Source of the DNA: Spirochaetales bacterium
GTDB taxonomy: Bacteria > Spirochaetota > Spirochaetia > DSM-16054 > Sediminispirochaetaceae
Direction of reading: 5' to 3'
DNA: 5,531 bases
NCBI GenBank assembly: GCA_021767325.1
Contig: JAASTM010000195.1
Location: 1-5,531, forward strand
Each line of letters opens with the position of its first letter. The stretch's first letter is position 1. This document shows, in pieces, positions 219-5,364 of this stretch. A model generated the notes under the pieces. The model was not told the DNA's origin and searched no databases. It was given only the letters and a program-made list of their open reading frames with translations. The translations under genes and the position numbers were made by a program.

Positions 219-1151
219 ATGCATATCTATGATAATGTAAACCAATTGATCGGACGTACACCGCTGGTCAGGCTAAACCGGCTCACCAAAGACCTGCCGG
301 CCGACATCGCGGTCAAGTTGGAATATAGCAATCCGGCCGGATCCGTAAAAGACCGAATTGCACTTTCGATGATCGAAGCCGCCGAAAAAGAAGGCACCCT
401 CGACGCCGAGACAGTAGTAATAGAACCAACCTCTGGGAATACCGGAATCGGATTGGCGCAAGTATGTGCTGTTAAAGGCTATCGGCTCATCATTGTCATG
501 CCCGACAGTATGTCACAGGAACGCCGTAAGATTATCCGAGCCTACGGCGCCGAATTAGAGCTGACACCGGCCGATGAGGGCATGAAGGGCGCCATCCGGA
601 GGGCAGAGGAGCTTGCCTCGGGCCTTCAGAAGAGCTTTATCCCGAGTCAGTTTACGAACCAGGCCAATCCACAGGCCCATCGCGATAACACCGCAGAGGA
701 GATCTGGAACGACACCGACGGCACGCTGGCAGCATTTGTTGCCGGAGTTGGTACCGGGGGTACCGTTACCGGTACAGGCGAAAAGCTAAAACAAAAGCGC
801 AGTGACATCAAGATCGTCGCCGTAGAACCGGCCGACTCGCCGGTTCTCTCCGGAGGGCAACCCGGATCTCACAAGATCCAGGGTATCGGTGCCGGATTCA
901 TCCCCGACATCCTCAATACTGAGGTATTCGATGAAGTACTCACGGTCAGCAACGACGAGGCCTTCGACACTGCCCGCCGTCTGACCCGTGAAGAAGGGGT
1001 CTTCTGCGGCATTAGCTCAGGTGCCGTTGTAGCGGCTGCCCTGAAACTGGCCTCCCGTGAAGAGTTCCGGGATAAACTAATCGTGGCCCTGCTTCCCTCA
1101 GGTGGAGAGCGGTACCTGTCTACTCCACTGTACGACTTCGGACAGGATTAA
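219..1151 (+). CDS. cysK: Cysteine synthase A (O-acetylserine sulfhydrylase)
   Basis: This PLP enzyme of the cytoplasm makes cysteine from O-acetylserine and sulfide. It has 310 residues, the usual CysK length. Visible hallmarks in order are IGRTPLVRLN near the N-terminus, the PLP lysine in GSVKDR (Lys44), the substrate-binding loop PTSGNTG (70-76), the glycine-rich phosphate loop GTGGTVTG (178-185), KIQGIGAGFIP (219-229), SSGA (266-269) and PSGGERYLST (293-302). NPAGSVKDR also resembles CysM, but the KIQGIGAGFIP and LLPSGGERYLST segments are of the CysK type. The ATG at 219 has a good ribosome site. The gene sits directly before cysE, so the enzyme lies next to the source of its substrate. 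The start of the homologous region at residue 5-10 also supports this start codon. Confidence 0.95.
   Translation: MHIYDNVNQLIGRTPLVRLNRLTKDLPADIAVKLEYSNPAGSVKDRIALSMIEAAEKEGTLDAETVVIEPTSGNTGIGLAQVCAVKGYRLIIVMPDSMSQERRKIIRAYGAELELTPADEGMKGAIRRAEELASGLQKSFIPSQFTNQANPQAHRDNTAEEIWNDTDGTLAAFVAGVGTGGTVTGTGEKLKQKRSDIKIVAVEPADSPVLSGGQPGSHKIQGIGAGFIPDILNTEVFDEVLTVSNDEAFDTARRLTREEGVFCGISSGAVVAAALKLASREEFRDKLIVALLPSGGERYLSTPLYDFGQD
824..847 (+). repeat. Perfect 9-bp inverted repeat inside cysK
   Basis: AGAACCGGC at 824-832 is followed by a six-base loop and its exact reverse complement GCCGGTTCT at 839-847. The RNA would form a stable GC-rich hairpin. It lies within codons for the conserved VEPADSPVL segment and has no T-run after it, so it does not look like a terminator. 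It may be only a by-product of codon choice. Confidence 0.5.
1144..1147 (+). promoter_or_regulatory. Ribosome binding site of cysE within the end of cysK
   Basis: AGGA lies in the last codons of cysK, seven bases before the ATG at 1155. A ribosome ending cysK would stand on this site, so the two genes are probably translationally coupled. Confidence 0.6.
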
Positions 1152-1154
1152 AGC

Positions 1155-2075
1155 ATGGCTGCAGAGAATGGCACCGCTGCCGGTGCCCCCGAACAGGAAT
1201 CCTTTATTGAAAGAATCGCCCAACAACTGTCGACCAGTGAGGTGCTGAGCAGTATTTATCACCACGGGTTCGAACAGGTTCCAATGCCATCCATCGAGGT
1301 ACTCTCAGAGATTATTGAAGAATTACGGGCGGTACTGTTTCCGGGGTACTTCGGCGATCCCGGCATCAAAGACCGACTCCTGCACTACCACCTCGGGGCG
1401 ATACTCGACAACGTATACCACCAGCTTTCCGAACAGGTTCGGCGGGGGTACTGCTTTGAGTGCGGTCACCGTACGAGCGGAGTATGTACCGACTGCCAGG
1501 TGCAAGCCGAGGACACCGTCCAGCAGCTGATCGAGCAGCTTCCGGCTATTCGCCATCTCCTGTCCACTGACGCGATAGCTGCCTACGAGGGCGATCCGGC
1601 CAGCCAGAGTGTCGGCGAGACAATTTTCGCCTACCCCAGTATGCATGCCCTAACTAACTACCGCATTGCCCACGTATTGTACAAGCTGGAAGTTCCACTC
1701 ATTCCCAGAATCATCACCGAAATCGCTCATTCCAGAACCGGAATCGACATCCACCCGGGCGCACGGATCGACGAACGCTGCTTCATTGACCATGGCACCG
1801 GAGTAGTCATCGGGGAAACCTCCATTCTCGGCAAAAACGTACGTCTTTATCAGGGCGTTACACTAGGCGCCCGCAGCTTTCCACTCGATAAAAACGGCAA
1901 ACCCATCAAGGGTATCGACCGCCATCCGATTCTCGAGGACGATGTCATTATTTACTCGGGAGCAACTCTTCTGGGCCGTATTCGCATCGGAAAAGGAGCG
2001 GTCATCGGTGGAAATGTATGGCTAACCGAAGATATCGAGCCAGGCACCACCATCCGAGCCAACTTCAACCAGTAA
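1155..2075 (+). CDS. cysE: Serine O-acetyltransferase with a cysteine-tetrad insert
   Basis: This enzyme acetylates serine with acetyl-CoA to give O-acetylserine, the CysK substrate. It has 306 residues against about 270 in E. coli CysE. The N-terminal helical part holds LFPGYFG (61-67). The C-terminal left-handed beta-helix starts near TGIDIHPGA. Asp198 and His213 (in FIDHGTG) match the E. coli catalytic pair Asp143/His158 with the same spacing, and His257 in IDRHP matches His193. ARSFPLDKNGKPIKG is a longer loop than in E. coli. Two features are odd. Cys100, Cys103, Cys111 and Cys114 form a zinc-ribbon-like tetrad between the helical segments. The protein also ends in RANFNQ, without the GVPARIVG-type tail and C-terminal Ile used to bind CysK. 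The start is set by the AGGA site and the 3-bp gap to cysK. Function is secure; metal binding is inferred. Confidence 0.92.
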   Translation: MAAENGTAAGAPEQESFIERIAQQLSTSEVLSSIYHHGFEQVPMPSIEVLSEIIEELRAVLFPGYFGDPGIKDRLLHYHLGAILDNVYHQLSEQVRRGYCFECGHRTSGVCTDCQVQAEDTVQQLIEQLPAIRHLLSTDAIAAYEGDPASQSVGETIFAYPSMHALTNYRIAHVLYKLEVPLIPRIITEIAHSRTGIDIHPGARIDERCFIDHGTGVVIGETSILGKNVRLYQGVTLGARSFPLDKNGKPIKGIDRHPILEDDVIIYSGATLLGRIRIGKGAVIGGNVWLTEDIEPGTTIRANFNQ

Positions 2076-2152: not shown

Positions 2153-4063
2153 ATGAAAGTGCATTCTGAATACGGACAATCATGGTTTCTGGCTGCAGCT
2201 CTCATCGACGGACCACGAAACCTCGAACAGTTGAAAGAGTACTACCATATAGTCGCCCGCCGCTTCGGTATGTTTATCAATGTAATGGAAAAGCGGGACA
2301 GTCTTATGGGGGCGAAAAAAAAGGATCACCTCGACCTCGATGAGAATCTACGGCAAAACCTGCGGGATCTTATCTCCCACGGCTGGATAGAGCACAGTGA
2401 CGGACTCTACAAAATCACCGATATCGGCCGTACACAGGCCGAGCTGATGCTCAGAGATCTGGAGCGCAGCGGCCGCATTTTAGAAAAGGCCACTCAACCC
2501 GAAACCGTTTCCCAGGTTACCCTGATCGTGCACTTCGTGCTGGCGGCGGTAAAACTGCCGGCGGCGGTGCTCTCCGGAAGTGTAGGTCTTTTGAACGATT
2601 CCCTGGACACTCTTATGGACGGAATATCGAGTCTGTTCGTGTACTTTGGTGTTCGAGCCGGAAGGGAACGGCTGGTAAGCTATGTGTTGCTGCTGTTCAT
2701 GAGTATCACCGGCCTTTACTCTTTGTTTGAAGCCGTCCGCCGCTTTATACATCCTGTCGATCTTCAGGGGGATCTCACCACCTTCGCAGCTGTATCCGTC
2801 TCCGCCCTACTCTGCGCAGTATTATGGCTATATCAGAAGTTCTCCGGCCTGCGCCACAGCTGTATTCCCCTGATAGCCCAGTCCATTGATTCCCGCAATC
2901 ATATCATAGTGGCCGGCGGAGTTGCCGCTGGTCTCGTGGCCGCCAAATACAACATCATGCTTCTGGATCAATTGGTTGGACTGATTGTTGCAGTACTCAT
3001 ACTCAAAGGCGCCGTCGAACTGCTGATAGATTTGCTGCGCAGCAGCGGCGAGGAAGAACTCGATCTGAGCAAGTACGGGTTTCAACGACTGGACCGGCAT
3101 CGTCACCGCCAGTTCGTACGATGGTTTCTATACGAAATAGAAAAAGAACGCATCACTAGCCGCGAAGAGATGTTCAAGGAGGCCTATGCCGCCACCGACT
3201 TCAACCAAATTGCCTCTCTGCGGGCACTCGGCCTGGCGGAACAGCGGGGCCGCGAACAAAAGATAGAAGCCGCAGCCCAGGAAGTCTTCACTCGTGGGCT
3301 GGCCGAAGAAATTGGGGTCGACCGCACATCAACTAACCGACCTCAGACCTCTAATAACTCCTCCATACTGAGGCTGACCCCTGCCGGCAAGGCTGAGCTG
3401 CAGCGCGCTCTATCCGACAACTGGAGCATCACTTACAGCGGTTACCTCTCGCTTCTCATCCGCAGCCTTGTCATAACCCTCTTCTTCTCCATTGTATGGG
3501 CAGCCGGCCGAGGATTAATAATTCTCCTGAACAACTGGATCGTACCACTCGAAACCTGGTCCGCATCCAGCGGGATGCCAGCCTGGCAGCTGGTCCTCAC
3601 ACAGGACATCCTCACTCGGGGTCCAATCGATTTAACACCGATCCACCTGATCGGGTTCCTCATAGGATTGGTACTATTCTACAACGGCCGGATGATCTCG
3701 CACCGCGCAGCCCATGCCATCCACCATGCTCGAGAAAAAATCTCCGGGCGAACCGAGAAACCGCGCTATCTGATTACCGGAGGCCCCTTCGCCCGTAGAC
3801 GCCATCCCATGTACACCGGCCATCTGCTCATTACTATCGGGGTGGCCCTCGCCCTCCACTCGGTCTATGCCCTGGTGTGGTCGGCTCTGGCGGTACTCGT
3901 TCAGATGACCGGTGCGTTCTACGAAGAGCGGCGCCTGGAGGGATGGTTTCCGCAGGAATACCCAGAATACCGCCGCAGGGTAAAACGACGCTTTCTATCC
4001 TCGACGCAGTGGGTTATAATAGCAGTAACATACCTTGCCGCATGGGTAGGTATCTTTTTTTAG
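2153..4063 (+). CDS. Winged-helix / CDF cation transporter / winged-helix / ICMT-like methyltransferase fusion
   Basis: This integral membrane protein has 636 residues from the ATG at 2153; a GTG at 2144 would add three. Residues 8-112 resemble a PadR-like winged helix, ending in YKITDIGR. About 120-296 give six membrane helices of a cation diffusion facilitator (LSGSVGLLNDSLDTLMDG), with metal-site candidates Asp152/Asp156 in TM2 and Asp246/His250 in TM5. Residues 316-425 hold a second winged-helix-like module with LTPAGKAEL, in place of the usual CDF cytoplasmic domain. About 430-636 are an ICMT-like membrane methyltransferase: GGPFARRRHPMY (His551), the EER motif (Glu591, Glu592), EYPEYR (Tyr603, Tyr606) and a last membrane helix. 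CzcN and NccN of Cupriavidus, linked to metal efflux genes, belong to the ICMT-like family. Likely metal transport plus SAM-dependent methylation; metal and methyl acceptor are unknown. No Shine-Dalgarno precedes it. The reading frame is intact throughout. Confidence 0.82.
   Translation: MKVHSEYGQSWFLAAALIDGPRNLEQLKEYYHIVARRFGMFINVMEKRDSLMGAKKKDHLDLDENLRQNLRDLISHGWIEHSDGLYKITDIGRTQAELMLRDLERSGRILEKATQPETVSQVTLIVHFVLAAVKLPAAVLSGSVGLLNDSLDTLMDGISSLFVYFGVRAGRERLVSYVLLLFMSITGLYSLFEAVRRFIHPVDLQGDLTTFAAVSVSALLCAVLWLYQKFSGLRHSCIPLIAQSIDSRNHIIVAGGVAAGLVAAKYNIMLLDQLVGLIVAVLILKGAVELLIDLLRSSGEEELDLSKYGFQRLDRHRHRQFVRWFLYEIEKERITSREEMFKEAYAATDFNQIASLRALGLAEQRGREQKIEAAAQEVFTRGLAEEIGVDRTSTNRPQTSNNSSILRLTPAGKAELQRALSDNWSITYSGYLSLLIRSLVITLFFSIVWAAGRGLIILLNNWIVPLETWSASSGMPAWQLVLTQDILTRGPIDLTPIHLIGFLIGLVLFYNGRMISHRAAHAIHHAREKISGRTEKPRYLITGGPFARRRHPMYTGHLLITIGVALALHSVYALVWSALAVLVQMTGAFYEERRLEGWFPQEYPEYRRRVKRRFLSSTQWVIIAVTYLAAWVGIFF
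3992..4020 (+). promoter_or_regulatory. Possible internal promoter for ahcY
   Basis: A perfect -10 hexamer TATAAT at 4015-4020 lies 17 bases after TTTCTA (3992-3997), which matches three of six -35 bases. The predicted start near 4027 would give ahcY a leader of about 55 bases containing its strong ribosome site. It lies in the last codons of the fusion gene, where the Trp-Val-Ile-Ile codons produce the TATAAT, so it may be accidental. Confidence 0.4.
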
Positions 4064-4080: not shown

Positions 4081-5364
4081 ATGACGGATAACAACGGCCA
4101 CAAATCGAAAATCAAACAGTCTTCACTCCGCAACCCCGATCTCGCCCCACAGGGCCGCAAAAAAATCGAATGGGTTGCCAAGCGGATGGATATTCTCAAT
4201 GAGATCAAACAGATCAACTCAGAGGTAAAACCGCTGAAAAACCGCCGAGTAGCCATTTGCCTCCACCTCGAAGCGAAAACCGCCTACATGGCCACCGTCA
4301 TCCGCGACCTCGGTGCCGAGGTAATAATCTCCGGCAGTAACCCTCTTTCTACTCAGGATGATGTAGCCGCCGGGTTAGCCTCAATGGGAATCGAAGTTCA
4401 CAGCTGGTACGGAGCCAGCACCGACGAATATTACGGTTTCATAAACAAACTCATAGATTTCGAGCCCGATCTGATCATCGACGACGGCGGAGATCTGGTG
4501 GCCACGCTTCACTCCAGCCGGCGCGAACTTCTGGAACATATCATCGGCGGTGCCGAAGAGACCACAACCGGTATTCACCGTCTCCGCGCCATGGAAGCCG
4601 CCGGGGAACTCAAGTTCCCTATGATTGCCGTAAACGATGCCATGTGTAAATATCTGTTCGATAACCGTTATGGCACGGGTCAATCAGTGTGGGACGGCAT
4701 TATGCGCACCACCAACCTGGTTGTTGCCGGTAAAACCGCAGTGGTCATCGGCTACGGCTGGTGCGGCAAAGGTGTTGCCATGCGCGCAAAGGGCCTCGGT
4801 GCCCGCGTTGTCGTCTGCGAAATCGATGCCATTAAAGCCTCGGAAGCCTGGATGGACGGATTCGAGGTCATGCCCCTGGAAAAGGCCGCTTCCAAAGGTG
4901 ACTTTTTCGTAACCGTTACCGGCTGCAACGATGTTATTCGCAAAGAACACGTTCAGCAGATGAAAGACGGTGCTATCCTCTGCAACGCCGGCCATTTCGA
5001 CGTGGAAATTTCCAAACCCGACCTGCAAGCCCTGTCTTCACGGGAGGATGAGGTGCGCACCAACATCCGCCGCTACGACTTGGGCGACGGCCGGTCAGTC
5101 TATCTGCTGGCCGAAGGGCGCCTGGTCAACCTGGCGGCCGGCGACGGCCACCCCGCCGAGATCATGGATATGACCTTTTCCCTGCAGGTCTCTTCCCTAT
5201 TGTACCTAATCGAGGCTGGCAAGCTCGATGCGAAGGTGTACACCGTCCCCGAGGAGATAGACCAAGGCGTAGCTGAGCTCAAGCTGTCGTCCCTCGACCT
5301 CGAGATAGATCAACTCTCGGACTCCCAGCGTGAGTACCTCGAAAGCTGGTCCTCCGGCAGTTAA
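4081..5364 (+). CDS. ahcY: Adenosylhomocysteinase (S-adenosylhomocysteine hydrolase), short Thermotoga/archaeal type
   Basis: This NAD-dependent cytoplasmic enzyme splits S-adenosylhomocysteine into adenosine and homocysteine, relieving product inhibition of methyltransferases. It has 427 residues. Visible motifs are HLEAKTAYM (62-70), NPLSTQDDVAA (87-97), IDDGGD (133-138) with the catalytic Asp, EETTTG with Glu160, Lys190/Asp194/Asn195 (human Lys186/Asp190/Asn191), the Rossmann NAD loop GYGWCGKG (224-231), GHFDVEI (His305) and GRLVNLAAGDGHP (His357). It lacks the human-type C-terminal Lys/Tyr extension that closes the neighbouring subunit's NAD site, as in the Thermotoga enzyme. About 20 residues precede the conserved NPDLAPQGRKKIEW region. 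Some archaeal relatives prefer S-inosylhomocysteine, so the substrate is probable rather than proven. It follows the methyltransferase fusion by 17 bp and is probably co-transcribed with it, perhaps with an additional internal promoter. Confidence 0.94.
   Translation: MTDNNGHKSKIKQSSLRNPDLAPQGRKKIEWVAKRMDILNEIKQINSEVKPLKNRRVAICLHLEAKTAYMATVIRDLGAEVIISGSNPLSTQDDVAAGLASMGIEVHSWYGASTDEYYGFINKLIDFEPDLIIDDGGDLVATLHSSRRELLEHIIGGAEETTTGIHRLRAMEAAGELKFPMIAVNDAMCKYLFDNRYGTGQSVWDGIMRTTNLVVAGKTAVVIGYGWCGKGVAMRAKGLGARVVVCEIDAIKASEAWMDGFEVMPLEKAASKGDFFVTVTGCNDVIRKEHVQQMKDGAILCNAGHFDVEISKPDLQALSSREDEVRTNIRRYDLGDGRSVYLLAEGRLVNLAAGDGHPAEIMDMTFSLQVSSLLYLIEAGKLDAKVYTVPEEIDQGVAELKLSSLDLEIDQLSDSQREYLESWSSGS

Follow-up and report, generated by a model that had tools for sequence, protein, structure and literature searches.

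A CDF-fold core fused to a membrane methyltransferase in a Spirochaetales bacterium: a possible coupling of metal handling to methylation

Gene content of the window

The window, i.e., the whole stretch of 5,531 nucleotides analyzed here, carries four genes, all on one strand, the third of which is the fusion gene under study. Its features are presented in Table 1. The fusion gene begins 77 bases downstream of the serine acetyltransferase gene. When the sixteen related genome loci described below were searched with tblastn, cysK, the acetyltransferase and ahcY were found in none of them; a conserved cys/ahcY operon was rejected on this result, and the gene context in the window may be accidental. 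A promoter-like TTTTCA-17-TATACT is present at positions 2115-2143, shortly upstream of the fusion gene, with a scan count at chance level; the promoter and terminator scans as a whole gave results at chance level, and Rfam yielded no match at the gathering score. As a separate observation, the serine acetyltransferase (1155-2075) presents an N-terminal stretch at residues 100-114, CFECGHRTSGVCTDC, whose two CxxC pairs resemble a small zinc ribbon, which is unusual for a serine acetyltransferase.

Table 1. Features of the window and of the fusion protein.
Feature	Positions	Strand	Evidence
Cysteine synthase A (cysK)	219..1151	+	TIGR01139 457.4 bits, cut-off 350.95
Serine O-acetyltransferase (EpsC type)	1155..2075	+	NF041874 157 bits, cut-off 150
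Fusion gene, 636 aa: PadR-like winged helix, CDF core, PadR-like winged helix, ICMT/PEMT-like methyltransferase	2153..4063	+	ORF, Pfam, model, homologues
Winged helix 1, residues 1-115, PadR-like fold, last helix runs on into TM1	2153..2497	+	
Six-helix CDF core, residues 116-300	2498..3052	+	
TM2 DxxxD, D152 and D156, first half of presumed metal site	2606..2620	+	Both in 118/118 non-gap rows; align to YiiP TM2 DxxxD
TM5 DSRNH, D246 and H250, second half of presumed metal site, inverted relative to HxxxD	2888..2902	+	Both in 119/119 non-gap rows; align to YiiP HxxxD
Winged helix 2, residues 311-421, PadR-like, in the position of the CDF cytoplasmic domain	3083..3415	+	
ICMT/PEMT-like membrane methyltransferase, residues 427-635	3431..4057	+	
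RHPMY motif, R550-Y554	3800..3814	+	R 74, H 71, P 74, Y 57 of 75 long forms; aligns with RHPMY of 4a2n
EER motif, E591-R593	3923..3931	+	E591 in 71/75, E592 in 67/75 long forms
S-adenosylhomocysteine hydrolase (ahcY), 17 bases past the fusion gene	4081..5364	+	TIGR00936 591.2 bits, cut-off 497.6

Domain layout of the fusion protein

The single intact frame that a sequence-only reading had proposed was confirmed as an open reading frame. The Pfam models scoring above cut-off were PF01545, PF04191 and, narrowly, PF02544, with PF04140 and the winged-helix models below theirs; in the NCBIfam scan, no model passed its own cut-off. The predicted structure is confident (pLDDT 89), its domains agree with that reading, and together with the fold matches it bears out the winged helices proposed on both sides of the CDF core. 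The predicted domain assignments are thus supported by Pfam, by the model and by fold matches. Both parts of the protein are found in 75 of the best 120 of 134 protein matches, so the fusion is real: the many separate homologues with the same fusion rule out an assembly error or a chance joining.

The CDF core and its inverted metal site

PF01545 scored 58.5 bits against a cut-off of 26.6, and the model presents the six-helix transporter fold, so the CDF assignment holds for fold and Pfam family, yet it does not extend to a CDF of the ordinary type. In comparison with YiiP/FieF and the ZnT CDFs, which belong to PF01545 and present HxxxD in TM5 and a cytoplasmic domain, the fusion protein presents DxxxH and winged helices instead, a TM2-TM3 loop about 14 residues shorter (as measured against YiiP with a profile built from 52 family members), and an attached methyltransferase. 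The C-terminal cytoplasmic CDF domain is absent, with a winged helix in its position. An ordinary CDF is therefore ruled out by the TM5 motif, the loop length and the missing C-terminal domain. The NCBIfam model of the CDF superfamily, TIGR01297, scored 61 bits, under its cut-off of 82.35.

The TM5 inversion, i.e., D-xxx-H instead of the usual H-xxx-D, is present in 259 of 259 proteins covering the motif, a total that includes 140 of 140 further proteins beyond the first alignment (138 with DSRNH and two with DARNH), and D272 of TM6 is kept in 120 of 120 rows. For comparison, 32 matches to ordinary CDFs in the same sixteen genomes gave 31 stretches, of which 26 were readable once five wrong-frame reads were omitted. 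Their second TM5 place is D in all 26 and H in none, and their first is H in 17, N in five, Q in two, D in one and F in one. According to the available part of Montanini et al. (PMC1868760), the TM5 motifs are HxxxD, DxxxD, TxxxS/T and VxxxD, with D-xxx-H not among them; instead of the HxxxD or DxxxD given there for TMD V of the Zn-, Fe/Zn- and Mn-CDF groups, DxxxH was found in 119 of 119 non-gap rows.

The methyltransferase domain

RHPxY and EE are motifs of ICMT-like methyltransferases, visible in the alignment with 4a2n, and both are present in the window protein. PF04191 (PEMT/ICMT-like) scored 37.2 bits against a cut-off of 25, and PF04140 (ICMT) 19.5 against 24. The ICMT-like assignment proposed from the sequence is thus upheld through PF04191 and the motifs, with PF04140 itself below its cut-off. 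Similarity to Ma-ICMT (4a2n), eukaryotic ICMT (5vg9), MddA and LmtA comprises membrane helices, RHPxY and EE, and common profile matches. The fused domain differs from ICMT, MddA and LmtA in being attached to a transporter core and in scoring far under the NCBIfam cut-offs: 31.4 bits against an equivalog cut-off of 160 for NF040696 (protein-S-isoprenylcysteine O-methyltransferase), 26.6 against an equivalog cut-off of 270 for NF045656 (methanethiol S-methyltransferase MddA), and 18.8 against 325 for TIGR04571 (lipid A phosphate methyltransferase LmtA).

Among the 75 long forms, the fusion homologues P0059, P0060 and P0063 lack the RHP motif. In these three proteins the CDF core is intact and the enzyme looks decayed.

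Distribution of the family

Homologues were gathered by words shared with the query, a procedure that favours conserved motifs. The best 120 of 134 protein matches comprise 75 proteins with the CDF core and the C-terminal part (including the window's own), 42 short forms without the C-terminal part, mostly of 390-460 aa, and three fragments or unclear cases. Later sets were the best 120 of 643 matches to an archaeal short form and the best 120 of 506 from a further search.

The sixteen related genome loci are distributed among five spirochaetes, five Anaerolineae-type Chloroflexota, and one each labelled Aminicenantes, KSB1, Gammaproteobacteria, Deltaproteobacteria, Desulfuromonas and Methanomicrobiaceae. 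L001 and L002 carry fusions, L003 a contig-edge piece of a fusion, L014 both parts in two overlapping frames, and the remaining twelve the short form. When DNA-pattern scans for QS[IV]DSRNH were applied to sets of 392, 400, 142, 249 and 199 genomes (some included twice), genuine matches were found in seven genomes, all of them already seeds (G001, G002, G004, G008, G009, G013 and G015); this is a lower bound, given that the pattern overlooks DARNH members and the genomes are samples. Pattern matches in G198, G218, G517 and G912 were rejected, as tblastn found no CDF there. The plasmids searched gave no match at E <= 1e-20, the viral contigs gave 21 pattern matches with zero relatives, and the first scan of genome contigs with a single sequence gave 27 pattern matches, also with zero relatives.

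In the Aminicenantes genome (G001), PF04191 matches at C14:25920-26189 and C74:28994-29254 fall within open frames 626 and 572 aa long, which are possibly other ICMT-like multidomain proteins.

Separate methyltransferase genes beside short forms

A PF04191 gene lies within 2 kb of the short form in four of the twelve short-form loci (L004, L008, L009 and L013), and none is nearby in the other eight, a count in which L015, cut off at a contig edge, and L016, whose frame is broken, are scored as having no such neighbour. If genes are taken as independent, at least four in twelve would arise by chance with a probability of 1.2e-5 for flanks of 3 kb and 6.7e-5 for flanks of 5 kb. In comparison, no PF04191 gene lies within 5 kb of any of the 32 ordinary CDFs from these genomes (Fisher p = 0.0036 versus the short forms). 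The neighbour in the archaeal locus L009 is the sole PF04191 gene found in that genome; in L008, the PF04191 gene is upstream of the short form and shares its frame, the two being separated by a stop; and in L013, ten PF04191 genes lie on one contig within 15 kb. The same domain order and the separate parts as adjoining genes are hence both found, which supports the earlier proposal that the two activities work together. On the contig containing part of L013 (G013, C108:15801-30491), a class I methyltransferase was recognized by eye among the ten ICMT/PEMT-like genes beside the short-form CDF.

Exchange of the methyltransferase partner

The ICMT-like partner named in the sequence-only reading is right for the window, yet the partner is not always ICMT-like. 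Fusions to class I methyltransferases are found among the homologues of the archaeal short form, and at least six protein clusters present the same kind of core fused to such an enzyme (P0088 and P0253, which a motif rule mislabelled as class I, are left out of this count). P0162, P0219, P0229, P0230 and P0231 carry one class I type; the enzyme of P0256 is also of class I but distinct, and scores 40-45 bits to the others. In the three of six clusters that were scanned, the fused domains match several class I models, those of ArsM and UbiE among them, at scores far under the cut-offs. Class I genes also adjoin the short form in L007 and lie between the ICMT and CDF genes in L004.

In a quick unrooted tree of 89 chosen rows (40 of 70 ICMT fusions, 28 of 172 short forms, six class I fusions, three decayed fusions and twelve loci), six changes are needed for the ICMT label (at least four on starred branches) and four for the class I label (at least three on such branches); three label changes may be one gain and two losses, and some changes may be losses. 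The ICMT fusion P0210 is nested among short forms near the archaeal L009, and its ICMT part is closer to the stand-alone ICMT of L009 (138-149 bits) than to that of the window (37-42 bits). A similar enzyme is thus seen both split and fused. P0229 and P0256 are sisters on the CDF tree with different class I methyltransferases, as if the partner had been exchanged. Given that ICMT-like and class I partners both occur, the link is between the CDF core and SAM-dependent methylation rather than ICMT alone, and there seems to be a joint need for metal handling and methylation.

Proposed function and alternatives

From the observed architecture, conservation and recurrent methyltransferase linkage, we infer, with a probability of about 0.35, that the protein couples metal handling to the methylation of a ligand (a thiol, a sulfide or a metalloid), where transport, the identity of the metal, the acceptor, the dimer and the coupling itself are all part of the inference. 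In its favour, the metal-site residues are invariant, RHPxY and EE are mostly kept, and the linkage to a methyltransferase recurs. The membrane protein would probably form a dimer, in which the CDF-fold module would move or bind a divalent soft metal at the D, D, D, H site, and the attached SAM-dependent methyltransferase, working within that membrane, would have as its target either the ligand of the metal or a toxic co-substrate. The most likely acceptor would be a small thiol, a sulfide or a metalloid species. A thiol turned into a thioether by methylation would lose its affinity for the metal, which would then be free for export; the SAH hydrolase of the adjacent ahcY gene would clear the resulting SAH. 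As dimerizing and sensing parts, the PadR-like domains may take the place of the usual CDF cytoplasmic domain.

Several observations point to a thiol or sulfide acceptor. The gene sits after cysK and the serine acetyltransferase and before ahcY, and in nine of the sixteen loci the isolate names start with "Zod", which we take to stand for Zodletone spring. Abstracts describe this spring as sulfide-rich. On the metal side, a Fur-family gene (L010:1594-2037) lies directly upstream of the short-form CDF of L010; a DtxR-like protein near the L009 genes was recognized by eye alone. MddA is ICMT-like. Outside the family, the strongest parallel is the S-methylation of H2S and methanethiol, which is performed by two unrelated enzyme kinds, integral-membrane MddA and the UbiE-family MddH and MddM2 (PMC12904073, in its available part). 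The UbiE-family enzymes are of the class I SAM type, as are the fused domains of P0162, P0219, P0229, P0230 and P0231; the likeness to MddH is one of class, and the matches, far below cut-off, come from ArsM- and UbiE-type models. Counting against the coupling to thiol methylation are the eight short-form loci without a nearby PF04191 gene, the missing RHP of P0059, P0060 and P0063, the MddA, ICMT and LmtA models that score far below cut-off, and the absence of D-xxx-H from the TM5 motifs of Montanini et al. in the available part of that paper. We suggest only tentatively that these proteins form a class of methylate-and-export machines, in which a CDF-fold exporter with an inverted D-xxx-H site and PadR-like sensors would work with a SAM methyltransferase, with one or the other of two unrelated folds, that methylates a thiol, sulfide or metalloid ligand of the exported metal at the membrane.

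A lipid or quinone acceptor is a serious rival. Phospholipid methylation is also served by two unrelated folds, so a lipid acceptor fits nearly as well. It is possible, if somewhat doubtful, that the enzyme methylates a membrane lipid or quinone next to the transporter, so that less metal enters or the pump is tuned, as the unlinked CzcN might do. The fused domain scores as PEMT, a phospholipid methyltransferase family, the lipid A phosphate methyltransferase LmtA is among its matches far below cut-off, UbiE-type quinone methylases are among the sub-cut-off matches of the class I partners, and ICMT-like genes occur in metal clusters. This remodelling of the envelope is, however, harder to reconcile with a family found in an archaeon (L009) and several bacterial phyla with differing lipids and, weakly, with the fact that no lipid gene was seen next door by eye among neighbours of which few are annotated.

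It is rather unlikely that the CDF fold no longer transports, and instead binds metal at the inverted site and switches an attached or neighbouring methyltransferase through the winged helices. The inverted TM5 pair, the shorter TM2-TM3 loop, the lost C-terminal domain and the two regulator-like domains flanking the core would suit such a sensor, as would the H260D and D264 changes of PtdMTP1, which abolish function according to a table in the available part of Montanini et al. (PMC1868760). Nevertheless, the site residues of TM2, TM5 and TM6 are invariant, and eight of the twelve short-form loci have no nearby PF04191 gene to control.

The domains had also been described as DNA-binding-like, from which a membrane-bound one-component transcription regulator could follow, with PadR-like domains that bind DNA and the CDF core as metal receptor. 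The resemblance is one of fold: both winged helices match PadR regulators, including 5x11, an entry of a PadR-operator complex, while the PadR Pfam model is not among the matches of the fusion protein at E <= 1. Winged helix 1 is slightly basic overall (mean +1.0), and winged helix 2 of the window protein has a charge of +3. Yet the putative recognition helices have a mean net charge of -0.5 and -1.6, and the wing of winged helix 1 of -1.2, over 116-118 rows, in a comparison that covered the recognition helices and wing 1 of the family. Since recognition helices and wing 1 are on average slightly acidic, DNA binding is unsupported. PadR regulators appear to share the fold of both winged helices, whereas those of the fusion protein sit in a membrane protein and have recognition helices that are not basic; a DNA-binding regulator as main role is disfavoured by this charge and improbable.

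Least probable by our estimate is methylation of a protein, either the transporter itself or a partner cysteine or carboxylate: both parts are in one chain and ICMT methylates protein C termini, but C221 (TM4) is the only cysteine among the invariant residues of a 28-row alignment and, to our knowledge, prenylated CaaX proteins are generally absent from bacteria.

Relation to known systems

We know of no substrate for the CzcN-type ICMT-like proteins of metal-resistance clusters. CzcN is described as an ICMT-like protein of czc clusters in the available parts of PMC7563307, PMC12029693 and PMC3056050, the latter two of which mention a regulatory role; the parallel drawn earlier with CzcN as a separate gene is supported (PMC7563307, PMC12029693). 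The operon arsR-czcD-STE14-ompR of Cellulomonas sp. Y8 (PMC8832061, available part) means CDF and ICMT-like genes as neighbours are already in print. As in the fusion, the czcD-STE14 operon and the czcN clusters encode a CDF or other metal efflux gene with an ICMT-like gene; these are, however, separate genes, for which the available parts of the sources describe neither winged helices nor a class I alternative, whereas the fusion family has both. The window's methyltransferase is thus not a stand-alone gene of a metal efflux cluster, as a CzcN-type accessory would be, but is fused, with cysK, serine acetyltransferase and ahcY genes as neighbours. The proposal of an undescribed system may stand for the fused form, since no CDF-methyltransferase fusion was found in the open-access literature searched (titles and abstract openings among the matches listed), but not for CDF and ICMT-like genes in one operon, which PMC8832061 reports in its available part.

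If true, a methylate-and-export machine would, as far as is known from the literature searched, be the first case in which CDF metal handling is physically coupled to methylation. Given that an ICMT-like methyltransferase is here in one chain with a CDF core, and can be replaced by an unrelated one, the substrate question becomes testable in a single protein, and the inverted D-xxx-H site is a natural test of the determinants of CDF metal selectivity.
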